A stretch of 64,000 bases of DNA from Halichondria panicea (lineage: Eukaryota > Porifera > Demospongiae > Suberitida > Halichondriidae), in assembly GCF_963675165.1 (NCBI RefSeq), contig NC_087380.1:3773803-3837802 (forward strand), written 5' to 3'. Position numbers and translations under genes: made by a program. Positions within the stretch are counted from its first letter, which is position 1. Each line of letters begins with the position of its first letter. Below the pieces are notes generated by a model that did not search any database, was not told where the DNA came from, and worked only from the letters and a program-made list of their open reading frames with translations. This document shows, piece after piece, positions 10,935 through 39,428 of this stretch.

Positions 10935-12556
10935 TATGTAGACGTGCTACTTTCGTGAACAACTCAGCCCCTATAATGGTTAGGTCGGAGCCACTATCTA
11001 GCACACCTACTGCTGGGACTCCTTGAATCTGGACTGTGGCTCCTTTAGCACTACTACCCTGTGTACCAGTTGAACCTGTTCTCCGTCTGAGTCAGAGAGA
11101 AGCATTTCTAACATGTCCTCCATCCTATCAGATGCCTCAGGTTCTAACCCACTCATAGTCTGCACCGGGGCTGATTTCTGGCTGCCTGGTAGATTTCTAC
11201 CTCAGCTCTCTAGCTGTGCGTCTAGAGGGGCAGTTGTTGGCAAAATAACCGGGTTGATCACATACAAAACAGGTACGCTTATCGCTCTTACCATCACGTC
11301 TCTTCTCATTGAGGGTGTTGGTAAACCCATATCCTCTAGCTGGGAAGGTCTGGGGGGGTGGCTTCTGATACTGTTTCCTCTTCCTCAATTCCTGGAGCCT
11401 ACGCTCCTCACTCTTTGCTGCAATGCATAAAGCTGAATAGGAGTCAACGCCAGATACGCCTGGTGCTCTCATTATTTTCATAACGCAACCCCTCATGTAG
11501 TTGATCGTACAACAGGGCATCTCTGGCCTCTGCATTGATACCATCCCGCCCATAAGCTATGCGGAAAATCCGTTCTAGTCTGCGTATAAAGTCTCCGACA
11601 CTTTCTGTTTCTGACTGGACCGTGTGGCGAAAATCCTGTGCTGCTAGGGTTTTACTCCCTGGATCCAGTCTACACTTCAAAGTTTTTACAGCTAGTGAGT
11701 AAGTTGTCTTATTACTGTCGCTGATTAGCTCCCACTCCTGCAGGGCTCTACTTCGTAAGTGGCCTGCCAACTGGAGTAGGCGATCGCCTTCCGCCCATTC
11801 ATTCCACGTGGCTGCACGTTCTAGCGAAGGGAGCCAGTCGTCAAACCTAATGGCTTCATTCTCCCCAGTAAATGGTTCCACTGGTGGGGCCTTGCCTCGT
11901 CTATGGGCGTTACTTCTACGGGGTTGCTCAGTAAATATGTCCGATACAGTGGGAGATTCTCTTTCTCTTTCTCCGGTTATGCTAGGGGGACTGCCTGTAC
12001 TAGCAGCCCTAAGATGCTCAATCTTAGCTTCTGCTTCGGCTAATTGTTCATCAAACTCGGCCAACAATGCACATTGCTGGCCCCACAGTTCCTTGACCCT
12101 AGTGTTGGCTTTAGCAAGCCGTATCTTAAGTTCACTCACCTCTCTCTGAAGGCACTCGTTCAGAGAGCAGGCTTCGTCTAGTTGAGCGCGCAGGTCTCCG
12201 CCTCCTTCGCGTCCATCCTCTTCGGCAGGATCCTCTTCAGCAGGGACTTCTATCTGCAGAAACACTCCTTCAGCATCCATCAGCTCAATGGAGTCTTCAT
12301 CCAGCCTCACTTGAACGTTCCTTGGTTCGTGTCCCAACTCTTCCAGCTTGCCCTCCAGCATAGGGTAGGTGTCTGCCCTCGAGGCAGTCCCAGGTAGCCT
12401 CAGCTCCACGGCTATGCGTTTGATGACATCAGTCGGGAGCCTCGAGGAGTTCAACGAGTACAGTCTCCCTCGAGGTCTAGCACTTGGCAATAGCCCTTCG
12501 TCTCCAGTCGTCTCCTCGACGATTTCCGTGATCAGGCTCTCTGAGTCGTCTGCCAT
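10935..12556 (-). mobile_element. LTR-type retroelement remnant: gag with zinc knuckle plus aspartic protease, rest of pol missing
   Basis: The minus-strand frame 11444-12556 (370 residues) has an N-terminal helical SAP-like stretch, an acidic region, a Leu/Glu-rich coiled coil (about residues 120-185) and a gag capsid-like region containing 'FDDWLPSLERAA' and 'ESVGDFIRRLERIFR'. The frame then shifts near 11500 and continues to 11200 with one knuckle, CFVCDQPGYFANNC, in which the usual His is Tyr. A further shift leads to a protease active-site segment 'VGVLDSGSDLTIIGAELF' near 10965-11030. No reverse transcriptase, integrase or LTRs were found, so it is a broken fragment. Related gag/protease order is known from Ty3/gypsy-type elements; the clade is not determined. 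Confidence 0.8.
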
Positions 12557-19079: not shown

Positions 19080-22000
19080 TTAAAAGGGTGCTATTTTGTT
19101 CAGTTTCACCATCACCTGTGCCATGCTGGGTCGATGGCTGGGCTCTCTCTTAGTGCAGTGGAGTATCAGCTCGTACACTGCAGGACGCTGCCTCTGTACT
19201 TGAAAAATCATGTCTCGATAATGTTCAGTACTAGGGAATCGACTAGCGGTCACCTCACAGAGGACAATACCGTAGCTGTACACATCGATCTTGACAGACT
19301 GTTTCAGAGGGGGAGTGAGAAGATCAAAGGCTTGAGGGATGACTTCAGGAGGGGAGTAGATTATGGCCCCCTCTCCCATCGTATGAGCATGCTGCAGGAA
19401 GTTGGCTGAGCCGAGGTCAGATACCTTCCCCTTCCACTGGTGGTTGGACATTCGCTGGAGGAGGACGTTTGGGGCACTTACATCGCGGTGGATAATGGGA
19501 TCGTAGCGCTGGTGCAGGTAGTCCAGAGCTAGGGCAATGTCCATGAAGATCGAGAGACGGTTTCCTGGGTCCAGTTGATTTCTCTCGTACGCTTGTCGGA
19601 GATTCATGTCCAAAAGCTCGGTGATGATGAGAGGAGGGGATCGATTCTCTCGGTTTTGATCATTAAAAATAGCACCAATGAATTGCACGAGGTTTGGGTG
19701 TCGCACTTCAGCCAATAGCCTCATTTCTCTCTCCATTTTCTCAATGTGAATTGGGTAGGCAATTTTTTCATGTAGTCGCTTGATAGCCACACTCACTGTT
19801 CCCTCCAGCACCTCCCCCCACCCTCCTTCGCCAATCCTCCTGCCAATTATCACTCTGTTGGCTGGAATCCTCCACACCTCTGTTTTGTGTGCTGCCAACT
19901 CTTTTGTCTTGCCTTCTAACTCACTCACTAGAGCTGTGATTCGAGCAGACAAGTCAGCTTCTCTTCTGTTGGCCTCAGCCAATTCACGATCTTTCACTTG
20001 TAAAAGTAATTGTGTAGCTTGCTCTCTTTGCTCTGCCAGCTGTGCTCTTTCCTCCGCATCTCCATGACGACGGTTAGCCTCAATCAAATGTTGATTTTTT
20101 CTAGCCAATTCATGATCTTTCTCTTGCAATTGTAGTTGGTGGCGATGTTCTGTGTCGTGCTCTCTCTGCTCTGCTGGTCGTAACTGTTGTTCCAGATCTA
20201 GAGCCCTCACCCGGCTGGTCTCACTGACTGATGAGGCATGAGCAGTTGCTCGTCTAATCTTCTTCTCACTCAGTCGCTGGGCGGAGCCTCTAGTGTCATT
20301 GTGGGCCACATTCATGAGATCCCACTTCCCAGCCGAGGTTTCAGCAACAGACGCTGAGGGTCCAGTCAACTCTGCATGTATAGGGAGGGATTTAAGGAAC
20401 AAATGTAACAGTATACGCCTTTGACACATGTATTGTGTGTACGCAGAGGAGGTTGGTCACATTCCAACGAAAGAATGTGCGTGCACGGAGAAAAAAGAAA
20501 AGTACACGGAAATCTACAGAGACAAGTATGAAAAGTAGCTATCCTAGCTAAAGCTAAAAGGCTGCAAACGATTGTAGCACTCTAGCAAATTATGCTAACA
20601 ATACCCAGTCACATTACAGTGGTGGATGCAGGAAATGTAAAAGGGTGGTTCCTGAAGGACAATGAGCCCGAAGGGTGAGTTGTATCCCCGCGCAGTTACG
20701 CCCACTTCCGGTCTAACCTCCGCCCATTTCTGGTCACGCGAGAGCCCTGTACTCCCGAGCAGGCTGCAGTAGAGTTAGAGGAAAAACTTGAGACTGCTGA
20801 TATTACATCCTGCTGTGACTCTGAGCCTATTATTATGCCTTGGTGCGCATGCGCAAGCGAGGTGTACGGTAGTGTGTTTGTGTGTCTGTGCTGTATGTCT
20901 GTGTATCTGTGTGTGTGTGTGTGTAGACTGCTACAGTTGCTCAAGGATGAATCAAGTGCAAGTAAGAGTTTCTATAGGCTTCTAGTCATGTTTACTTGGA
21001 TTTTAATTAGTGGATTTGCAAAATAATGCTTTGTTCTCAGGTTATGCTTAGTTTTGCTTACTTGGAATGCCATTGCAACCTTTTCAGAAGAGCACGTAGC
21101 CAAACTTGTTTTCCGAATGTTGCTACTCTACTTAGTAGTTAGCTCTGTACTAGAACGCTAGCTATTGGTAGCTGCAAGAGTGAGAAGAGAGCTGCAAGGC
21201 TCTATGGCAGCCTAGCCATTAATTTTAGACTTGAACTTTTGGCATCAATCGCTTTTAACAACAATCATGGTCGATCATTACCCACTCTTTAAGTTTGCAT
21301 GCATGATTGGACTCCAGAGGAGGTTGGCCACGCGTCATCAATCATGTGACATTCCTAAGGTCTCTGCTCACGTTACCATAGATACCGAATAACTGTAATA
21401 AAAAAGCTATGGATACTTTTGCTTTGCTGACTTGTAACACCGGACTAGCTGTGTCTGTTGTCTGGCTGGACCAAGATTAGCTAGACTATAGGGTAGAGTA
21501 TAGTTCAGCGGTGCTGTATGCAGCTTGCATTGTACTGGCTGGCAAGAATCTAGTAAACACTGTATGCACTGATAACTCGCCAGAATAGAGGGGATCGGTG
21601 GGGATCGGGTTAGTTAATGAAAGTTTTATACCAAAAGAAGCCAGAGAGGCACATAAAGTTTGCCTTCAGTCTCTAATGACCGTGCAACATCAGCTAGAAG
21701 TTTACATAGAACTCATTGTCAATTTTTGTGCCAGCTCAGCAAAAAAAGTGGTGCACGTGATCGTGTCCAACCTCCTCTGATTGGACTCTGCTATTAGTAG
21801 CTTTATCATAGTGTTATGTAGCTTTGGCATCTCCACTGAGGAATCAGCACCTGCGGTGCTTTTTATTTTAGTTTTTGTATATTGTTTTAGTGTCTGTTGC
21901 ATTTGAAACTTTATTTGCTTTGAGATTGGCATTAGCTACAACACTTGGTCTCTTCAATGTTTAAAGTCTTCTCCTCATTTCATTGCTCATAATAATAAAT

Positions 22001-25000: not shown

Positions 25001-26901
25001 AATATGTATTTTAATCGGCATGGATTCGAGGCTAGGTTGAATGGAAAGTTTGGAGTCAGATACAGATCGATGATAAAAGGGCTATCTTGCTTATATTATG
25101 TACTCTCAAAAGTACATCATTTCTTTAATGAGATTCATACTTTTTTTAATCTGTTTTATTACCATATAGCGGGTAATTTCGGGGGGAAAAATCTTCGTGG
25201 TTCAGCAATATTGAGACATTTCGTGGGTAATATTTTCATGGTTGGAGCTTGCCAGTTGCCAACTTGCCACTGCAAGGTTGCTTCATTCGTGGGTAAAATA
25301 TTTGTGGTCAGATCTTCACAACCACGAAAACCACGAATATTTTGCCCCATGAAAATTACCCTCTATACGGTATTAGCGCGTACTTAATTTAGCGTTAATT
25401 ATAAATTCGCTAAATTATAATACAGTGGAACCCCTCTATAACGGACACCTTTGGGGAACAATGTTTTGGCCTTTATACAGAGGGGTGGCCTTTGTTGAGA
25501 GGTTGTTTTGTACACAAACTGTTCATTTGGGACCTGGGTGCCTGGCCGTTATATAGCAGCTGGCCTTTATTCGGAGGTGGTTGTTAGCAGAGGTTCCACT
25601 GTAGTAACAATAAGCTTTTAACAAGATCACGGTACAAGTATTGTATGCAAAAAGTTGCTTGCTGGTTGCGTGCAAATTTGCAGACAATTCGTTGCTTACA
25701 ACCATTGTAGGAAACGAATTGCCTGAAAGTTGCCGGGTGTATGGTTGCCTTATTTTCACAAGTAGAGATTTGATGCAATTTCACTGTTTATAGCTGGTAT
25801 TAAATTCTGCTAAGCTCAAGTTGTGTGTTACTTATAGCATTTCTAATTACTCGCAAGTGGTTTTAATGAGATTCATTGCATTTTCCAATTTTCTGCGAGT
25901 ACACATTTTTGTGAAATAGCAGAAATCAATACCTGCGAAAATATGACACCTTAAGGTAGATAAGAGTCAAAGGATGTACGACAGGCGCGGTGCAGCTCTA
26001 GCAATTAGTCTTTGATTGAGCAATAATTATCCACCCACGTCGTATGTTTTTGATGAGTGTAATCAAAGGCTAATTGCTTGAGCTGCACCGCGCCTGTCGG
26101 ACCTCCTCTGAGTGAGAGTGTTGAACTGACATGATGTGCCTGATACTGCGTCATCACTTGATGCTATGTTAATAGCAACACTTCCCAGAAACCGCAGGCA
26201 GTGCTACAAACCACAGACACAGTTTACTCATTATAGTGACAGACAGTGATGACGCACATTATGCATGTATCCACGTTTACTAGTTCAACACTTAATATCA
26301 AGATATTGATGAAAGTGAACATGGTTTCCTGCATGTATGTGAGTGAGGGTGGGACTCCGCCCACCAGCAGAAAACATACAGCAAATGTGCAAATTGAAAA
26401 GTTACCATTTTGTGTGTCAAAGAAATGGAACTCGTTTGTCCATCCACTGGTGAATGTTGATCGTGGTTGTGTGGGGCCCTTAATACCTTCTCCTCCAAAG
26501 CAGCACAGAGTGTTCTCATTCACACGGACAAGTCCACAACCAACCTTTTTCATAGGCTGACTACCAAAATATTGAATTTTGGTCCACTGGAAAGTGTCCA
26601 AATCAAGCTTGCTCATGTCATTGAAGTAAGAAGACCTATACTGACCACCGAAGGTGTACAGGCAACGACCTACACAAACAGAGCGACCACCCCACTCTCC
26701 AGGGGGTAGAGGTCCAGTAGTGGGGAAGAAGCTCCACTGCTCAGTGCTTGAATCACACACAGCAATGATATTAGACCCCTGTTCTGGACCAGCCCCCCTC
26801 CACACATAATGGCGTCCGTCAGCTACAGCTGAGGAATGCCACCAACAAGGTGGTGGTTCAACTGGTTGTAGACCAAGTAAGGAACGAAGCCGAGCTTTCA
26901 T
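19080..26901 (-). CDS. Kelch repeat - coiled coil - protein kinase fusion
   Basis: Five coding exons on the minus strand: 26406-26901 (ATG at 26901), 24105-24265, 23856-24041, 23202-23349 and 19080-20371. Phases agree at every junction, giving 760 residues. Residues 1-330 carry kelch repeats, with blocks such as 'LYTFGGQYRSSYFNDMSKLD', 'AVLFGGKQPGRGG', 'LLVYGGVDNGSNTLGDMW' and 'EVLVFGGHREWGG'. Residues about 370-497 form a Gln/Glu/Arg-rich coiled coil. Residues about 505-755 are a kinase domain with Gly loop GEGGWGEV (510-517), VAIK lysine 528, HRDVSAPN (catalytic Asp 628) and DLG (649-651) in place of DFG. The catalytic residues are present, so activity is likely; the HRD loop and hydrophobic pattern fit a TKL/TK-like kinase. 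A likely non-coding or short upstream exon would join at the acceptor near 26908. The introns (2.1 and 2.8 kb) are packed with MITEs. The fusion rests on phase and splice sites across the 2.8-kb intron; two separate genes remain possible. Confidence 0.75.
20617..22315. mobile_element. Candidate DNA transposon, about 1.7 kb, ends CAGTGG.GGAT.CAGG
   Basis: Left end CAGTGGTGGATGCAGG (20617) is matched by the inverted right end CAGTGGCGGATCCAGG (ending 22315), both followed by G-rich sequence. It contains a reverse copy of dispersed repeat D (20815-21200). No transposase frame was seen, so it would be non-autonomous. The flanks show no clear target duplication. It sits in the kinase-gene intron. 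Confidence 0.5.
24602..24857. mobile_element. MITE, about 256 bp, ends AGG.TTTCATCTAGG
   Basis: 'aggatttcatctaggg' at 24603 is inverted at 24842-24857 ('cctagatgaaaccct'). A G-run (about 13) sits next to the left end and a C-run near the right. It is intronic in the kelch-kinase gene. Confidence 0.65.
24977..25034. other. Near-perfect 58-nt hairpin
   Basis: TAGCCTCGAATCCACGCCGA.. folds onto ..TCGGCATGGATTCGAGGCTA with one mismatch and an almost absent loop at 'ATATGTAT'. A weaker related hairpin ('cctcgatccc..gaatcgaga') is at 27618-27670. Confidence 0.75.
25160..25372. mobile_element. MITE with TACCGTATAGC-type ends
   Basis: Left 'taccatatagcgggtaattt' and right 'aaaattaccctctatacggta' are inverted. 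The interior matches 18773-18981 ('cacgaatattttgcccc', 'tcagcaatattgagacatt'). Confidence 0.75.
25421..25603. mobile_element. Tigger/pogo-type MITE, about 183 bp
   Basis: The ends TACAGTGGAACCCCTCTATA and the inverse of 'gttagcagaggttccactgta' match the well-known CAGTGGAACCTC-type termini of pogo/Tigger elements, with TA target sites. A half copy lies at 40228-40303. The decayed DDE gene at 13.9-15.1 kb is of the superfamily that mobilises such ends. Confidence 0.75.
25976..26102. repeat. Hairpin element with about 40-bp inverted arms
   Basis: 'gtacgacaggcgcggtgcagct' (25976) is inverted at 26081-26102, and the similarity continues through 'agcaattag.ctttgat'. It is preceded by the MITE half-element ending 'gacaccttaaggta' (25903-25960). 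Confidence 0.75.
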
Positions 26902-27187
26902 TGTCTGTAGGAGTGAGGAGCAATATGCATACACACACGCAATCATTGGTTGAGCCTGGACTGAGATGCTAGCTATAGGATAGGAGTCATAGGACCTAAC
27001 CAGATCAACAACCATCATGAGACTGACATGAACTCAGTATATATATAGACTATCTATCTAGTACATTGTAGCAATGAGGCACAGCATTTCAACTTACAAG
27101 TAGAACACTCCCTCAGATCTAGAGATATCAGAGAGCTGCTATATTGTTGTTGGAGTTCTCAATAATTATTGATCTTGCATACCCGCC

Positions 27188-29300: not shown

Positions 29301-30149
29301 ATAACAATGTGCCTTGATAAAGGTAACTTTGAACAAATCATGTCAAGCTACTGGTCAATGGACAGGAGAGGCACCAATATTTATTTGTCCATGTGAGTTG
29401 ACAAAATAATGGTGGCCATATAAGGTGCATGAGATTGTATTTGATATCCCCACAGCTGTTGGCTGTGGTTCCCTTGATCCTCTGGAACCACCACCTTTTA
29501 TGATTACTGCTACCGATACTGGATACAACATTGTTGGTAGTGAAACAAGAACTTGTGGAGCAAATAAGCAACTGGACCAACTGATGGAGTTTGGAGTTGA
29601 ACTGCACCAACTTTGAAGTATATGTTCTGTAATCATCAAACAATTACTGAACCATAATTATTATGCATTGTTTCCCTACAGTCCTGCATGTGTCCTATTA
29701 CTGATCCCTTCTCGAATGGAATGGTAATTAATCTACTCTGACAGTCGAAGGCCTATATAGAAGCTAGAACAGTGGCCACTTACTCTTGTAACCTGGCTAC
29801 CACTGAGTGGTACTACAGTGACGAGGGTTTGTGTGGATAAAATCTTAGGTGGATGGTGTTCAATTCAGCCAAATTGCAATTATAGTGAGTGTAACAAACA
29901 ATGCTACTGTAAGTTTAATATAAAAAAAAGTTATTGACTGTGGTTCCTGGACAACCCCTCCAACGAGCAGTGAACACATCCTCTGCATGTGATGACAGCT
30001 ACCTACACCTGACGCTGTACCCCTGGATACAATCTGGTGGGATCAGATAGAGATTGTCAAGCTAAATTGAAACAGGAGCTCCAGTGAACCTGCCTGTGAA
30101 TGTGAGTGTGACCTACACAGCTTCAATACTACTCACTGCTCCCCTACAG

Positions 30150-32064
30150 TCAAATCCAAATTCTTTAAGTGCCTAGCAGGAAAACTGAATTCCCCTAGAG
30201 ATTTCTGGTCAGCATACAACAAACTCTCTCCGTCAAAAAACAGGACACCAGCTGAACTGAAAAACAATAATTCTACAGCAACAACCTCGCTCGAAAAAGC
30301 TGACATGCTGAACAGTGCATTTGCCTCATTCTTTACCTCACCAACTGCATCCTGCAGTACTCCTGAGGAAATGTCAACACCTAACTGCTCACTCAGTGAC
30401 ATTGAGTGCACCCAAGAGGAAGTCCACCATCTCTTATCTTCTTGCAAACCAAACACTGCCTCCGGTCCGGATGGCATTTCTAGCCAGATGATCCGAGGGA
30501 CTGCTACTGCTATTTCCCCAACAATCACCAAGATATTCAATAGATCGCTCAAGCAAAGCAGAGTCCCTGACCTGTGGAAAGTCTCCAATGTTACTCCTAT
30601 TCCGAAGGATGGGGATCCAACTTCTCCTAGCAACTACCGACCGATATCTCTCCTATCATTAATCTCAAAAGCTCTGGAAAGGATTGTACACAAGAGAATC
30701 TCAAAGTTCTTATACTCAAACAAGCTCCTGTCAAACTGCCAGTTTGGCTTCAGACCAAAATCTTCAACTCAAGAAGCCCTCCTATCTGTCACTAACGACT
30801 GGCACAAACTTCTAGAAAATGATCACCAAGTGGCAACTGTGTTCTTTGACGTCAAGAAAGCATTTGACTCAGTACCCCACCCACAGATCATATCCTCTCT
30901 CCAAGTCGTAGGCATTTGTGGCAACCTACTGCATTGGATAAAAGACTATCTTACCAACAGAGAGCAAAGGGTAGTCCTGGAGGGAACTATGTCAGACCCT
31001 GTTGCAGTGACCTCAGGTGTCCCACAAGGGTCAATCTTAGGACCGCTATTATTCAACATTTTCATGAACTCAATTGCTAACATCAACCTGTCCACCAATG
31101 CCAAACTCATTCTATACGCAGACGATATCCTTCTCTACAAGCCCATAAACTCGACAATTGAAACTCAGGACCTACAGGGAGACGTCAATGAAATAAACTC
31201 CTGGATGCAATCTCACGGCCTCACAGCAAACCACTCCAAGACCAAACTGCTTACAATAACTCGCTCTACACGCACTATCCCAATGAATATAGATATAAAC
31301 AACCATCGGATCTCCCCATGTGATACTGTAAAGTACCTTGGTGTTACTATCAATAATGATCTAAAATGGGCATGTCACATACACAACACCTGCAAGAAGG
31401 CCAAACAACATCTTGGCTTCATCCATCGCAAGTTCCATAAATCACCACCTCAGATCAGGAACCAGATCTACCGCACGGCTGTTCTGCCTAAGTTAGACTA
31501 TTGCGGTGCAGTCTGGGACCCTCATCACCACACAGATATAAAAAAACTGGAAAGCGTCCAAAAATTTGCAGGGAAAATTGTAACGAAGCAGTGGAGGGCA
31601 GAATACCCTGACCTGCTTGCCTCCTTAAACTGGAAACCTCTGTCATCTCGAAGGAAAAACCAAAAACTGAAAGTCTGCTTTAATATACTTAATAATTTAT
31701 CTATAATATCTCCCAATGTTTTCACCCTCCATCCTCGCCCTTCCCCCCGTCACCCTCATAATCAAATTATTTTTAAACCATATGTTAAAACCCTAGCCCA
31801 TAGACATTCCTTTTTTGTAAGCGTAATCCCCATTTGGAATTCCCTTCCCCTAAATGTTATCAGTAGCCCTAGCCCATCTGCTTTTAAATTATCCCTGTCA
31901 AAATTATAGCAATAAGTTAAAATTTTTTTCCTTTTTTCTTTTTTTCACTTAAGTACACCTGCACCTGCACCTTTACTTTTTGGTTATGGACTGACTTCAT
32001 TATTAGCTTCATTTAGCTACCTTGTCATATCCTGTATGCTTCCTCTGCATCAAACATTATAAAG

Positions 32065-32092
<28 letters not shown>
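30150..32092 (+). mobile_element. 5'-truncated LINE ending in poly(A)
   Basis: An open frame enters from about 30150 and runs to 31909, followed by a short 3' UTR and a 28-bp A-run ending at 32092. The endonuclease and any ORF1 are missing, as in incomplete target-primed reverse transcription. A target duplication could not be identified confidently. It sits inside the receptor-paralogue relic. Confidence 0.9.
30305..31909 (+). CDS. LINE reverse transcriptase, open over 534 residues
   Basis: From the first in-frame ATG: 'SGPDGIS' (53-59), 'NYRPISLL' (110-117), 'FFDVKKAFDSV' (180-190, catalytic Asp182), 'GVPQGSILGPLLF' (238-250) and 'YADD' (271-274), followed by thumb and a C-terminal region with 'LPKLDYCGAVWDPH'. 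The frame is open upstream to about 30150, so the ATG is not necessarily a real start. The motif set fits the CR1/L2/Jockey group of non-LTR elements; clade not decided. No stop or frameshift is present, so the insertion is young. It is truncated and cannot be a complete element. Confidence 0.92.
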   Translation: MLNSAFASFFTSPTASCSTPEEMSTPNCSLSDIECTQEEVHHLLSSCKPNTASGPDGISSQMIRGTATAISPTITKIFNRSLKQSRVPDLWKVSNVTPIPKDGDPTSPSNYRPISLLSLISKALERIVHKRISKFLYSNKLLSNCQFGFRPKSSTQEALLSVTNDWHKLLENDHQVATVFFDVKKAFDSVPHPQIISSLQVVGICGNLLHWIKDYLTNREQRVVLEGTMSDPVAVTSGVPQGSILGPLLFNIFMNSIANINLSTNAKLILYADDILLYKPINSTIETQDLQGDVNEINSWMQSHGLTANHSKTKLLTITRSTRTIPMNIDINNHRISPCDTVKYLGVTINNDLKWACHIHNTCKKAKQHLGFIHRKFHKSPPQIRNQIYRTAVLPKLDYCGAVWDPHHHTDIKKLESVQKFAGKIVTKQWRAEYPDLLASLNWKPLSSRRKNQKLKVCFNILNNLSIISPNVFTLHPRPSPRHPHNQIIFKPYVKTLAHRHSFFVSVIPIWNSLPLNVISSPSPSAFKLSLSKL

Positions 32093-32095
<3 letters not shown>

Positions 32096-33009
32096 CCCTG
32101 TCCATTGGTATAGCCTCGATCCCAGGCCGCACTTCATCAGGGGGCCAGTAAAGGACCATTGGAGGCATCGTCTATACACTAACACTACACAGCTCTGCCT
32201 TTCTGTGATTGGAGAGGGATCCTCTGCCCTCACCTGTCATACTGAGCTCACCACCTCCTGCAGAGGAGAGGACAACAACGGCAATGCAACAACACAATTC
32301 TCTCGGAAGGTGGAGAGGACCAAATGAGGATGATATAAACTACTGGTGATGGGCACTACATAACCAGATTTACCAGCTCCTATCAGTCGGCACTGACCTA
32401 ACAGGACAGTTGTGCATGCCCTGAGCTGGTGTGGGGGTGTCCAGACATGTGTTCAAATGCAAGGTTTCATTGTTTGTGTGTGTGCTTTTTTATTGTTACC
32501 CCCCCCTCCCCCACAGCTATTGAGCTGAGTGAGCGCCCAGCGTACGCACCCACTGAATCTTAAATCGTAATGACTACTGATTACTCACCTTTTGTACTTC
32601 TATTTGTTTATGTGCCTTTAAAAAAAACCATGCATGAATATACTTTATTGAGGAATTAAGTGTTCAAGCACGTATTTGAAATTCATAGCTGCCAGTGTTG
32701 CGTAACAATTGAGTGGGGGTGTATAGCCATTTCAGCCTCCTCTGCACTTGCTTATTGCATGTTCCCAAAAAGTAGTGTGCACTGTTTAGGAAATGGCTGT
32801 TTAGTATTCATAAGGCAATGGTGGCATTAATGCACATGCACACGCACACACGCACATGCATATATATAATAAAAATTATGCAAGTGCTGTCTGGGATTGA
32901 TCAAGAGGGGAACAAGGTGACCATGCATGCATTCTGCAGTACGTGTCCAATAGTATCCTGTGCATGCAGGCATCAGTTAACAGGCAGGTATATATACGAC
33001 CCATCTGTA

Positions 33010-33408: not shown

Positions 33409-36400
33409 TCAGTTATCGTATATTCCTCCAGCTGGAGCCTCTGTGTTGCCACGCCCACCCACAGTCAAGTATGAATCGTTATGCGTTAAGTTGGAGATGG
33501 AAATCTCTTCTGGAATCTCTTCATAAACACCGCTGTTCTCAAAGGTATTGGCTGTACCTTGATCCAGGTAAGCGAGGGGGATCCCATGAGGAACAGTCCT
33601 GTGTGTAAAAAGGTAATATTACGATAGCTAACACCACCAGTTTGTCTACTGTGGATGCGGTGCCAAAACACAATCCAAGCCACAATTAAAATGCAGACAT
33701 GAATATCATAGTTGTAGTCATTCTAGCCTTATCGTGCAGAAAAACCTACTAGATTCCCCGCTTGAAACTATCGTCATTCAACAAGGTAAATAAGTGATGC
33801 ACTTGACCAACAATCGTATACAACATAGACTTCCACTAGTCTCGGATCCAGGCTGTGCTTTAGAAAAAAACGTCTGGTCAAGTTCCTATGTGAAACTCGT
33901 GCAAAAGTCGAGGAATTTTTTGGGCCAGTAATTAACCGTACCAGACGTGCTTGCCCACGATCAGTCATGAATATAATTATGAATCACGATTACAGAATTA
34001 GGCCTGTAATCAATAATGGCTGATTGTGGGCGAGCACATCCGGTGCGGTTAATTACCAGTCCAAGAAATTCCTGGACTTCTGTTTCACATAGGAACTTGA
34101 CCAGACATTCTTTTCTAAAGCGCAGCCTGGACCCGAGACTAGACTCCCGCCGGAGTCTAAAAACTTGCACTTTTGTTAGGGGCAAACTGAAACGCATGGT
34201 AACCCCTTTTTTTTAACCCATCACAACTATTAATTGCCAAAGAACTAATTCAATCAGGCCAAAACCGGACCACTTTTCGTAGTTAGCTAGGTATTGGTCG
34301 TCATTATATGTAATATAGCTTCTTGTTATTTCTTGCCTCCAAACCATGCATGGCCTGACCACTATCAAATTGATTCCTATATTTATGTAGCTGCAACTTG
34401 GTACTACCATAGATAGAAGAGTAAGAGGGAGTCTTGTATTACTAAAACGTGTAAGCGCCCATCTACAGCTTTAGCTTGTTGACACAGCCTCGATTAAACC
34501 GCGGGTAAAGCGGATGTTACACGAGGGTACTTCCGTTACCAACCCCTCTTCCTCTTCTAACTATGGTACTACCAACCCAACTCACATTTTCCCTCCTCTC
34601 TTGTACCGGAGCACTAAGTAGGTCACTATCACTACACCAGTCACTACCACAACTACCAGGGCCACCACCACTCCTCCCACCACAGCACCAGTGTTGTCAG
34701 AGGGAGAGCTCTCATCAGTAGAGGAGGCTGTTAATGGAATGTATATGGAATGTATGAGACAATGATTGTTGTTAGCACTAACCTAACACAATACACGCTG
34801 TGCTCATCCCACCACTAGTAGGCACCACACAACAGTAGAGGCCACCAGGAGCAGTAGCTGTTCCGCTCATCAGACTGACACTCATATGACCTCTTCTAAC
34901 ATACAACGCTCCATCCTCCATAACAACAGAACCGTTAGGATAGTACCAATCTCCTGTGTTCCCATCACAGCAGCCAGCAAGGTCAGTATGACAGACGAGG
35001 CTACGCCCCTCTCCCACGGAGGACAGGGGGATTTCGGAGAGCCCAGACAGGTAATTGGTGGAGGAGAGAGACAAGTACACAGGGGGAGGGGCTATAGGGG
35101 GGTTGTGATAATTTTAGTTATTACAGACATAACATTTTAGTCCTTACTCTGACAGGATGGTAAGCTGCTCCAGTTGCCAGTATTCAAACATGTGATCATT
35201 TCAAAGCCAATAAAAATAAATCCAGTTTCACAGGTGTAGGTCACCTCTCCTCCGATCATTGTGTTGGTTGGCTGTCCGGAAGAACCGTTGTCAATAGAGG
35301 GAGGAGGCCCACAGGAAACTGCACCATATCCTTATAGAGTCAATTAACCAATTAGCGTATTTTCTTACCTCGACAAGTTGGAGTTGACCCGCTCCATGTT
35401 CTGTCATTTTGACAAACTCTGACACTGTCTCCATTGAGAGTGTAGCCATCGTTGCAGCTGTGTGTAGCTATAGTGTTGATAGGTCTGATGTCAGTGGATC
35501 CCATGCTGTAGGAGATCATCCCATTGGTCAGTGGGAGCAAGTCCTCGCAGATTACTGCACAGGTACAGTCACCAAACAAACAGTAAATTCATACCACTTA
35601 CGCTGACAAGTTGGAACTGACCCATTCCACACTCCATCACTTCCACAAGTCCTGGTGGTGTCTCCATTGAGAGTGTAGCCATCGTTGCAGCTGTGTGTCG
35701 CTATGGTGTTGATAGGTCTGATATCAGTAGATCCCATGCTGCTATAGGAAATGGCTCCATTAGGCAGAGACAATAAGTCGGAGCAGATAGCTACAAGGGA
35801 ATAGATACATTCAACAAACAACAGTTAAAATTCATTCCACTTACGCTGGCATACTGGAACTGACTCACTCCACACTCCATCACTCCCACAAGTCCTGGTA
35901 GTGCCTCCATTAAGAATATAGCCAGGGTTACAGGTGTAGGTGGCCACAGTGCCAACTGGTTTAGGACTAACAGTACCCATATTGTAGCCAATCATTCCAT
36001 TAGTCAGAGCAGTCAGGTCAGAACAGGTGGTGGGTGGAGGATCAGTGGGTCCAGTGTTTGCTGTAGGGTACGTTGTGAAATCCTCAACATAACTACACAT
36101 ACTGTAACTATCAACCGAAACTATCGATCCAAACAATCTTCATTGGCGCAATACTCACATAAGTTAAAAGCCACATAGTATACTACGGTTACAGAACTCA
36201 CCATGACAAGTTGGAGCTGACCCACTCCATGTTCCATCATTCTGACAAACTCTGAAACTCACTCCAATCAGAATGTAGTCATTGTCACAAGTGGAAGTAG
36301 CAGTGGTATTAATAGGTCTGCTGTCAGCAAGTCCAGCGTCATAGGCAATGGCTCCGTTTATTAGTGGTTGTAAATCAAAACAAGTTTCTGAAAAATTAAT

Positions 36401-39400
36401 AATAGTGAGCTTATAATTATTATAATTATTAAATTCAATTCTACTTACGCTGACACACTGGAGCTGATCCACCCCAACTTCCTCCACTCCCACAAGTCCT
36501 CATTGCCTCTCCGACCAGACGGTAGCCATTGTTACAAGAGTGAGTAGCTGTACTGCCCACTGGTCTGGTGTTGATGGATCCAGCAGTGTAGGAGATTATT
36601 CCGTTGATCAGAGAAGGTAAGTCAGAGCAGATTACTACATAGATACAGTCACCAATTTAAACCAGTCAATCCATACCACTTACGCTGACAAGTTGTAGCT
36701 GACCCACTCCACATTCCATCACTGTCACAAGTCCTGGTGATGTCTCCATTGAGAGTGTAGCCAGTGACACAGGTGTAAGTGGCCACAGTGTCCACTGGTC
36801 TCAGATTAACAGTCCCTATATTGTAGCTGATCATTCCATTGGTCGGAGCAATCAGATCAGAACAGGTGGTGGGCGGAGGATCAGTGGGTGGGAGATTAGT
36901 GGGTCCAGTGTTCGCTATAGGGTGCGAGATCCTCAACATAACTATATTATCTTCACATACTATACCAAAAATTTGATCCACACAGGGTTTATGCGAGTAA
37001 TTATTAGTTGAAACACACACTGTACAAGAGTTATAGAACTCACCTTGACAAGTTGGAGTTGACCCACTCCACGTTCCATCATTCTGACAAACTCTGAAAC
37101 TCACTCCAATCAGAATGTAGTCATTGTCACAAGTAGAAGTAGCAGTGGTATTAAGAGGTCTGTTGTCAGTAAGTCCAGCGTCATAGGCAATAGCTCCGTT
37201 CATTAGTGGTTGTAAATCAAAACAAGTTTCTGAAATAGTGAGCTTATAATTATTAGCAGTATACAAATTCAATTCCACTTACGCTGACACACTGGAACTG
37301 ACCCACTCCAGCTAATCCCACTCCCACAAGTCCTCATTGCCTCTCCGACCAGACGGTAGCCATTGTCACAGGAGTAAGTAGCTGTACTTCCCACTGGTCT
37401 GATGTTGGTAGATCCACCAGCACTGTAGGTGATCATCCCGTTGGTCAGAGAGGGTAAGTCAAAACAGGGTATCTCTGCATGATATGGGAGTCGATGCACT
37501 CAACAAACAAACAGCACAATGTCCATTACACTTACGCTGACAAGTTGGAGCTGACCCACTCCACATTCCATTATTTCCATCAATCTCACATGTCCTGGTA
37601 CTGCCGCCATTGAAAGTGTAACCAGGATTACAGCTGTAGGTGGCCACAGTGTCCACTGGTCTGTTGTTAGTAGATCCAGCACCATAATCAACGACCCCAT
37701 TTGTCAGTGAGGGTAAATCAGAGCAGGTTATCACTATGGTAAAAGGTACACACTCAACGTACACATTATACACAACCAGCCATTCCTTACGATGACACAC
37801 TGGAGCAGACTCAGTCCAGCTCCCTCCACTCCCACAAGTCCTCATTGTCTCTCCGACTAGACGGTATCCATTGTCACAGGAGTAAGTAGCTGTACTGCCC
37901 ACTAGTCTGCTGTTGATGGATCCACCAGCACTGTAGGTGATCATCCCGTTGATCAGAGAGGGTAAGTCAGAGCAGAGTATCTCTGCACGGAAGTCGATGC
38001 ACTCAACAAACTAACAGTACAAAGTCCAATCCACTTACGCTGACAAGTTGGAGCTGACCCACTCCACACTCCATTATTTTCATCACTCCTACATGTCCTG
38101 GTGCTGCCGCCATTGATAGTGTAGCCAAAGTTACAGCTGTAGGTGGCCACAGTGTCCACTGGTCTGCTGTTAGTGGATCCACCACCACCATAATCAACAA
38201 TCCCATTTGTCAGTGAGGGTAAATCAGAGCAGGTTATCACTATGAGAACAGGTACCGTCAGCGTACACATTTTTACACATCAGTCATTCCTTACGCTGAC
38301 ACACTGGAGCTGTTGATGAGCTCCAGGTTCCATCACTCTGACAAGTCCTCACTGGCACTCCAACCAGAGTGTAGGGACTGAAGCAGCTGTAAGTAGCCAC
38401 TGTTCTGTTGTTAATGGATCCACCAGCATAGGTTATGCCTCCATTAGTGATGGCTGGGAGATTATCAAAGCATGTGGCTGAACCAACATTGACTGCGGAA
38501 GCGGTGAGAACAGGTCAGTTTATATGGCCGGTTTTAACAAACTGTTATAGATCATCTTACTTACACGTTAGGTAAAACACATAAGCGCTAAGAAATCTTT
38601 TACTAACATGATAGTACCTTGACAAAAAATTGGTGCAAGTCCACTCCATATTCCATCACTTCCACAAGTCTTGGTGGCGTCTCCATTGAGAATGTAGCCA
38701 GTGTCACAAGTGTAGGTGGCCACAGTACTCGCACCCAGTGTTAGGGCAGAATAGGAGATCATTCCATTGGTGATAAGAGGAAGAGACAGACACACCACTA
38801 TCAGGGATATTGTAAATATTATCAGTATAGTCACATCCAGATCCATGCACTCACCAAGGTTGACACAGAGGGTCATATCTCCTTCTGTAGTTGGTATGGT
38901 GCAGCAATAGGACCCTGTTGGAGAGAGGGGGTTGTTTCCATCTCTACGAGACAGCCTGATGAGTTGGGGACCATTCCTCACCATGAAGAACTGTTGTCCA
39001 GCAGACAACGAAGCGCCATTTCCCACTAGCTCACTCCCATCAGGATACCTCCACTGTCCTAGTCCACCCATACCATTGTTGTCAGCAACACTTCTACAGC
39101 AGGCAGTGAGGTCAGTGTGACAGGCGAGAGAAGGGAGACCACCCAGAGCATCCTCTCCAATATCAGTCATGAGGATCTCAGTATTGTTATTAGTGATGTT
39201 CGGACCCGATCCCAGTGTCAGATAGACTGTTTAGTGATACAAGGTTTAAAATGTTATAAAGCCATACCCCTGCATGTACCAATATTAAAGCATACTTATA
39301 GCACTGCAGTCTGCAGTCCACTAGCTGATATACATTACATGATTAGATCTAGACCTACCTTGCTGTCCCCAGCAGGTGGACACAACATACAGCAACAGCA

Positions 39401-39428
39401 GAAGTTGAACACCACCTTGAGTCTCCAT
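33409..39428 (-). CDS. Ig-sushi(14)-Ig type I membrane receptor with tyrosine tail
   Basis: Minus-strand exons: 39359-39428, 38855-39226, 38618-38797, 38295-38492, 38039-38239, 37791-37982, 37536-37733, 37283-37474, 37044-37229, 36684-36914, 36449-36634, 36202-36387, 35845-36060, 35602-35790, 35369-35554, 35148-35318, 34783-35091, 34586-34727 and 33409-33598; 1264 residues. Residues 1-22 are a signal peptide (METQGGVQLLLLLYVVSTC). An Ig-like domain follows (24-147). Fourteen CCP domains (148-1051) each occupy one phase 1-1 exon of a length divisible by three, with the CCP pattern C..L.NG..Y....ATYSC..GY.L.G...RTC..DG.WSGSAP.C. A second Ig-like domain is at 1052-1154 and a TM helix at 1169-1194, then a basic stop-transfer and a 70-residue tail with Tyr 1212 (YLDQ), 1227 (YEEI), 1245 (YLTV) and 1262 (YDN). 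Sushi domains usually bind complement-type or adhesion ligands; the ligand here is unknown. The domain order matches no family I can name. Confidence 0.88.
33836..34142. mobile_element. Long fold-back element in the last receptor intron
   Basis: The two arms, each about 135 nt, are imperfect inverted copies (outer end 'ctagtctcgg.tccaggctg', inner 'gtctggtcaagttcctatgt'), meeting near 33985. It lies between the TM exon and the tail exon. There is no coding frame of its own. Confidence 0.85.

Follow-up and report, generated by a model that had tools for sequence, protein, structure and literature searches.

A sushi-rich receptor gene of the sponge Halichondria panicea and its chromosome 4 relatives with predicted tyrosine-tail and phosphatase classes

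Introduction

What kind of receptor places 14 sushi repeats between two Ig-like domains, and does it stand alone? The question is raised by a gene on the minus strand (39428-33409) of a 64,000-nucleotide stretch of the Halichondria panicea genome, hereafter the window, which occupies C4:3773803-3837802 on chromosome 4 (C4) of an assembly of 131 Mb and 39 contigs. An earlier note on this DNA had described the gene as a new receptor architecture. The layout is real, but it is not alone, given that the gene can be read as one outlying, divergent and sushi-rich member of a very large C4 family, with a published near-parallel in the fester co-receptors (FcoR) of Botryllus schlosseri. The main finding, as judged from sequence, is that this family appears to combine, on a single chromosome, two cytoplasmic classes with opposite expected effects, one ending in a tyrosine-bearing tail and the other in a receptor tyrosine phosphatase.

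Results

The receptor gene and its family

The receptor exons were rebuilt from AG/GT borders and open frames. The 19 exons splice to a single open frame of 1263 amino acids (aa) plus stop, with no internal stop, from the ATG at 39428 to the stop codon that ends at 33409, exactly the coordinates at which the earlier note had closed its own 19-exon model. Every splice junction (18 junctions) is GT-AG; 17 are in phase 1, and the last, between the transmembrane (TM) and tail exons, is in phase 2, so that the perfect phase symmetry claimed before holds along the ectodomain and goes a little too far as a description of the complete gene. The predicted order is signal peptide, Ig1, 14 sushi repeats, Ig2, a hydrophobic stretch and a tail that bears Yxx[IV] motifs, and the splice model together with the sushi matches in Pfam (14 stretches over the cut-off, E 4.6e-125) bears out the order of domains first proposed. 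Matches to cEGF and HRM also pass the Pfam cut-offs, at positions which in our reading fall inside sushi modules, and weak matches to RIFIN and DUF6476 at the TM end stay below them. No SRCR match was obtained in the 1263-aa protein with Pfam at E<=1, and the receptor has no cytoplasmic protein tyrosine phosphatase (PTP) domain, with no PF00102 match at E<=1 and a tail exon that ends in a stop. Chance is excluded for this gene model because tandem paralogs have their exons in the same order and because the window gene is constrained against them.

The merged searches with Ig1 and Ig2 gave at least 204 related Ig-like places, a count of domains and not of genes that includes the window's two and broken copies, and at least 179 of these lie on C4, between 0.107 and 4.395 Mb. 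Among the matches listed, Ig1 reaches at least 141 bits at 68 places (59 on C4, 6 on C14, 2 on C1 and 1 on C5). At E<=10 there are 32 matches to the tail exon, the window's included; C4 holds 30 of them, and for 28 of these 30 a listed Ig is found no more than 8 kb upstream. In the C4 array at 1.098-1.148 Mb, successive genes run through Ig1, sushi repeats, Ig2 of type A or type B, TM and tail, with Ig2 not found in two of the genes followed there. Nine tail genes can be followed from Ig1 to the tail and hold by our count about 3 to 8 sushi repeats, the 14 of the window gene being the highest number there.

Two adjacent tail-class genes, at C4:2920345-2926561 and C4:2928508-2934726, are nearly identical, a pair that arose by tandem duplication not long ago unless it is an artefact of the assembly. 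Protein-kinase matches cluster on the receptor's chromosome at 2.52-2.76 Mb. A receptor-kinase version of the family was looked for and is not adopted here, none of these kinase matches having been tied to this ectodomain.

Receptor phosphatase relatives

Beyond the TM exon of the gene at C4:469882, an I-set Ig is found together with a pair of PTP domains. Exon chains built for its 3' part, and for that of the gene at C4:364695, both run through Ig2B, TM, I-set, a first PTP domain (D1) with the motif HCSAGVGRTG and a second one (D2); those of the first gene lie in C4:468382-478600 and the matching exons of the second at C4:363195-371560. In the first gene Pfam identifies the I-set domain with E 3.6e-14 and the PTP pieces with E 2.9e-54 and 4.5e-47. 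Like that of the window gene, the TM exon of both PTP genes passes from phase 1 to phase 2. The chains cover Ig2B onward, the upstream Ig1 and sushi repeats of both genes being placed by array reading alone; after the I-set and ahead of the first PTP exon, both contain short exons that are doubtful, and the second holds one stop at a doubtful join, all of which are left as they stand. The Ig2B domains of the two PTP genes share up to 88 and 90% identity with those of tail-class genes, and Ig1 of three genes of the PTP array is up to 81, 83 and 87% identical to tail-class Ig1. From these exon chains and identities, a very similar ectodomain is read as joined to a receptor tyrosine phosphatase in at least two relatives of the window gene.

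At C4:473600-478600 the I-set Ig is located after the TM segment and before the PTP domains, and is therefore apparently cytoplasmic.

Exact catalytic PTP motifs number 58 genome-wide (53 on C4, 4 on C1 and 1 on C7), while a control with the reversed pattern gave 0. On the same strand, a listed receptor Ig is found at most 4 kb upstream for 21 of the 53 C4 motifs and at most 4 kb downstream for 7 of the 53, and the use of this figure is weakened by the fact that the 4 kb cut-off was picked after the distances between PTP and Ig had been seen. When the 50 motifs at 0.09-2.7 Mb were subjected to circular shifts, the average was 6.7, and 21 was reached in 1 of 2000. The listed PTP match nearest to the window gene is about 606 kb away.

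Cytoplasmic tails

The tail of the window receptor has 4 tyrosines in 62 residues and motifs of the phosphotyrosine type, in agreement with the tyrosine-rich signalling tail that had been proposed for it. The motif scan covered 33 tails, with 1 of the 32 tail-exon places outside the scanned set, and a recurrent consensus such as ...TYETVPATYEEIPASREVKGDYSYTQNNAYSTVSGREAPAAGGIYDN is found across the family. YEEI is present in 29 of the 33 tails, at least one core Yxx[ILV] in 31 and a loose pattern of two motifs (a pair of Yxx[LIV] spaced 6-20 apart) in 27, the window tail being included in both of the latter counts. The patterns of the immunoreceptor tyrosine-based inhibitory motif (ITIM) and switch motif (ITSM) are each met in 2 of 33, and neither the activation motif (ITAM) nor a loose pattern for its single-tyrosine form (hemITAM) is found in any of the 33. 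The window tail retains YEEI, YLTV and the final YDN. YEEI is a favoured ligand of Src-family SH2 domains and YxN is a Grb2-type site; on C2, three open reading frames (ORFs) with adjacent SH2 and kinase domains look Src-like.

Exon structure and growth of the sushi array

Exon 1 (39359-39428) of the splice model contains the start codon and a signal peptide recognized by eye (METQGGVQLLLLLYVVSTCWGQQ), and exon 2 (38855-39226) contains the N-terminal Ig-like domain, Ig1, to which 25 aligned paralogs are 70-78% identical. The sushi repeats occupy exons 3 to 16, all on the minus strand as the rest of the gene, and are placed by the splice model and Pfam, with DNA comparison in addition for sushi 3 to 11 and for sushi 14. 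They run from sushi 1 (exon 3, 38618-38797) and sushi 2 (exon 4, 38295-38477) through sushi 3 (exon 5, 38039-38239), sushi 4 (exon 6, 37791-37982), sushi 5 (exon 7, 37536-37733), sushi 6 (exon 8, 37283-37474) and sushi 7 (exon 9, 37044-37229) to sushi 8, which is preceded by a short P/T-rich linker (exon 10, 36684-36914), and then through sushi 9 (exon 11, 36449-36634), sushi 10 (exon 12, 36202-36387), sushi 11, again with a short linker (exon 13, 35845-36060), sushi 12 (exon 14, 35602-35790) and sushi 13 (exon 15, 35369-35554) to the divergent, membrane-proximal sushi 14 (exon 16, 35148-35330). Exon 17 (34783-35091) encodes the membrane-proximal Ig-like domain, Ig2, of type A, which is matched at 15 other places with 85-93% identity. 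Exon 18 (34586-34727) encodes the predicted TM segment, from phase 1 to phase 2, with similar TM exons in paralogs, and exon 19 (33409-33598) the cytoplasmic tail with YLDQ, YEEI, YLTV and the terminal YDN, followed by the stop. The introns are of 38-141 bp with the exception of the last one, of 987 bp, which holds a palindromic element resembling a miniature inverted-repeat transposable element (MITE; 33836-34142), with inverted arms of 61 nt (93%) and 67 nt (82% complementary).

At the DNA level sushi 7 and 10 are 95% identical, sushi 3 and 5 are 91% identical, and sushi 4, 6 and 9 share 86-89% (89% for 4 with 6 and 88% for 4 with 9), while sushi 8 and 11 share 83%. Long direct repeats span sushi exons together with their introns. 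This pattern indicates that the sushi array expanded within the window gene itself.

The Ig-like domains

Ig1 and Ig2 of the window receptor are 43% identical, which confirms that the two domains flanking the sushi repeats are related. The alignment of the family comprises 25 of the 29 Ig1 loci outside the window and both window domains, two loci with stops and two duplicates or near-duplicates being left out, and most of the aligned members keep a B-strand-like C, the W, the GxYxC motif and extra cysteines. No Pfam Ig model matches Ig1 or Ig2 of the window gene, nor any of 27 scanned members, and for this reason the label Ig-like rests on the motif pattern C...W...L...GxYxC. We infer the Ig fold of both domains from these motifs.

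Selection and constraint

The ratio of nonsynonymous to synonymous change (dN/dS) was computed for pairs with dS<0.3, in sets of distinct sequences above score cut-offs only, with the window tail outside the tail set. Ig1 (31 sequences) stands at 0.71, Ig2A (10) at 0.29, Ig2B (17) at 0.52, the tail (28) at 0.48 and the TM exon (30) at 0.81. Averaged over all pairs, dN is largest for Ig1 (0.151), followed by Ig2B (0.117), TM (0.093), tail (0.058) and Ig2A (0.052). On these figures, which gene conversion may blur for both dN and dN/dS, the N-terminal domain appears as the faster of the Ig-like layers and the one with the highest absolute change, and the TM exon as the one with the loosest ratio. 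Compared with its paralogs, the window gene has a dN/dS of 0.41 for Ig1 (30 paralogs) and 0.20 for Ig2 (9 paralogs), and is judged to be constrained against them.

Positive selection on Ig1 was considered and rejected. The count per codon gave 3 of 124 positive sites at p<0.05 and 22 negative ones, and since 3 sites are not above chance no claim of positive selection is made.

A decayed relative and the surroundings of the gene

The earlier note had placed a decayed copy of the gene next to it. A decayed relative is indeed found on the plus strand at 29335-32331, but it belongs to another subfamily, and no second copy of the window receptor gene is found within the window at E<=1e-3. The remains consist of sushi pieces at 29335-30066, the best of them at 29467-29565 (E 5e-7, others from 1e-4 to 0.01), and of a broken-frame Ig piece at 32172-32331 with 77% identity to the Ig at C4:966204 (E 3e-15); the strongest pieces are nearest to a different subfamily member near C4:0.966 Mb. 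Inside this relative lies a reverse-transcriptase ORF of 534 aa on the plus strand (30305-31909; RVT_1, E 1.4e-45).

Further downstream of the receptor, a Kelch-repeat ORF (26224-27018) is found on the minus strand, the same as that of a protein kinase ORF at 19080-20429, which has an HRDVS catalytic loop and an N-terminal part that appears coiled-coil-like by eye. An EF-hand gene lies on the other side of the receptor gene. The ORF at 11444-12556, also on the minus strand, matches PNMA (gag-like) weakly, under the curated cut-off.

Outside the window, GDCGASYAF is found at two places on C2, with a serine in the position of the active cysteine of cathepsin L, which we take to be the silicatein signature. 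The first of these places has an in-frame TAG just ahead of the motif, perhaps an exon edge, and three other matches are cathepsin-L-like. These silicatein-like signatures point to a siliceous sponge, most likely a demosponge, and agree with the attribution of the DNA to an early-branching ('basal') animal.

Discussion

On the sequence evidence, the product of the window gene is probably an intact type I receptor of the cell surface, a divergent member of a large C4 family of sponge recognition receptors which would resemble paired receptors and signal through phosphotyrosine. A recognition role is the best explanation of this family, and the partner recognized may be self, non-self or a microbe. 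The N-terminal Ig-like domain would bind a variable partner on a cell surface or on a microbe, upon which Src-like kinases would phosphorylate the tail, and YEEI and the related motifs would dock SH2 proteins. Phosphatase members with look-alike ectodomains, on engaging the same or similar ligands, would counter the tail signal, and the net output would depend on how the two classes are balanced, as with paired activating and inhibitory receptors. It is conceivable, though on the whole doubtful, that C4 carries a recognition complex on the scale of the chromosome, in which a variable Ig-sushi-Ig library is mounted on tyrosine tails, as substrates, and on covalently attached phosphatases, as erasers, and which would be a sponge counterpart of the Alr complex of Hydractinia and the fuhc complex of Botryllus and a candidate for the allorecognition genes long sought in sponges.

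Several observations weigh against the reading as a recognition family with two opposing classes. Some family copies contain stops or split domains. The association of PTP motifs with an upstream Ig becomes less marked at wider distances, with a listed Ig within 9 kb upstream of 35 of the 53 C4 motifs versus downstream of 27 of 53, and within 8 kb upstream of 34 of 58 PTP clusters versus downstream of 24, and for 18 of the 53 the 9 kb upstream contain no listed Ig at all. Of the 30 tail places on C4, even the one closest to a listed PTP match is 21 kb from it, with no direct gene pairs, and because this listed distance is everywhere at least 21 kb, the two classes are assigned to separate sub-arrays. 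The trees do not separate PTP-class from tail-class domains, and since no branch is well supported they carry no signal on class either way; their class labels are partly positional, the PTP-labelled Ig1 at C4:442130 not being traced to its PTP. The window tail has lost the family motifs YETV and YSYTQ and fits no canonical ITAM, ITIM or hemITAM pattern. The dN/dS of the TM exon exceeds that of Ig1, and the count per codon described above likewise offers no sign of positive selection in that domain. As to the fold of the Ig-like domain, profiles from Pfam and PDB name none, and the structure prediction that the earlier note had called for, once run, gave models with a mean predicted local distance difference test (pLDDT) score of 42 and 50, too weak for fold comparisons to settle the matter.

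The nearest published layout that we found is that of the Botryllus FcoR, which have a signal peptide, a variable Ig, one sushi, two C2 Ig, one TM and a tail, in 520-610 aa and at 53 loci (PMC12065747). Some of their tails carry ITIM, hemITAM or core Yxx(I/L/V) motifs, and FcoR pair with the three-TM fester genes, in large linked multigene families (PMC12065747). Passages of the same paper attribute ITAM/ITIM-type motifs to candidate Hydractinia Alr genes (PMC12065747). The sponge family shares with FcoR the signal peptide, the N-terminal Ig-like domain, the sushi, a further Ig-like domain, the single TM, the Yxx(I/L/V) motifs, whose core form is present in 31 of the 33 tails, that of the window gene among them, and the large linked families. 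It differs in its many sushi repeats (14 in the window gene), in having one Ig on each side of them, in its non-canonical tail and in its phosphatase-bearing relatives. The window receptor is described as FcoR-like by layout and not identified as an FcoR because its order, Ig1, 14 sushi, one Ig2, TM and tail, departs from the exact order of FcoR; the comparison is by description only.

Other systems resemble the family in part. The Hydractinia Alr genes are clustered and their Ig domains escape sequence profiles, as is found here, but to our knowledge Alr has neither a sushi stalk nor a phosphatase class, both of which occur in the sponge family. In the paired receptors of vertebrates (KIR, LILR, SIRP), look-alike ectodomains are placed on opposing signalling parts, and the inhibitory partner recruits SHP phosphatases through ITIMs; the likeness lies in similar ectodomains with opposing signalling, whereas in the sponge relatives the phosphatase is built into the receptor. 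The tandem PTP domains of these relatives recall the CD45-type receptor protein tyrosine phosphatases. Among sponges, Geodia cydonium has a putative aggregation receptor with SRCR and SCR domains, and adhesion molecules with polymorphic Ig domains are found. These are sponge surface receptors with sushi, or with Ig domains, comparable to the predicted receptor of the window, which differs from the Geodia receptor in having no SRCR match. An Ig-sushi-Ig ectodomain common to tyrosine tails and receptor phosphatases in a sponge was not found in the literature covered, which consisted of titles, abstract openings and passages, with few subscription papers.

The alternative that survives best is that these are pattern-recognition receptors, in which the variable Ig-like domain and the sushi stalk bind microbial surfaces and which expanded under microbial pressure, as is thought to have happened for the SRCR and NLR families of sponges. 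The high copy number, with some copies decayed, is consistent with such an origin, as is the fact that sushi- and Ig-containing genes of other sponges respond to microbial signals, but the passages of the papers that report this describe no such architecture (PMC6208332, PMC8242945). Opposing outputs from tails and phosphatases on similar ectodomains would suit contact-dependent balancing better, and we regard this alternative as rather unlikely.

A housekeeping role, with variable homophilic receptors that serve cell sorting in sponge reaggregation and have no immune meaning, would fit two established facts, the frequent occurrence of sushi and Ig modules in adhesion proteins and the reaggregation of sponges through surface molecules. 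The strong constraint on the type-A membrane-proximal Ig (dN/dS 0.29) and an Ig1 with no excess of positively selected sites point in the same direction. About 30 tyrosine tails and 53 catalytic PTP motifs on one chromosome (two of the PTPs attached to this ectodomain) nonetheless seem excessive for adhesion, which makes this explanation improbable. It is similarly improbable that the window copy is a decaying outlier, a relic of a family whose working members lie elsewhere. The roughly 0.6 Mb that separate it from the nearest listed PTP gene, an Ig1 branch that is the longest of 16, the two motifs lost from its tail and the MITE-like element in its last intron speak for this, and are set against 19 intact exons and a dN/dS versus paralogs of 0.20 (Ig2) and 0.41 (Ig1).

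If C4 does carry such a recognition complex, the balance of kinase and phosphatase would reside in the receptors themselves and not in phosphatases recruited through ITIMs. A linked family with variable N-terminal domains, two classes and an FcoR-like layout gives a concrete and testable set of candidates for sponges, and recognition balanced by phosphotyrosine would then reach back to an early branch of the animals.

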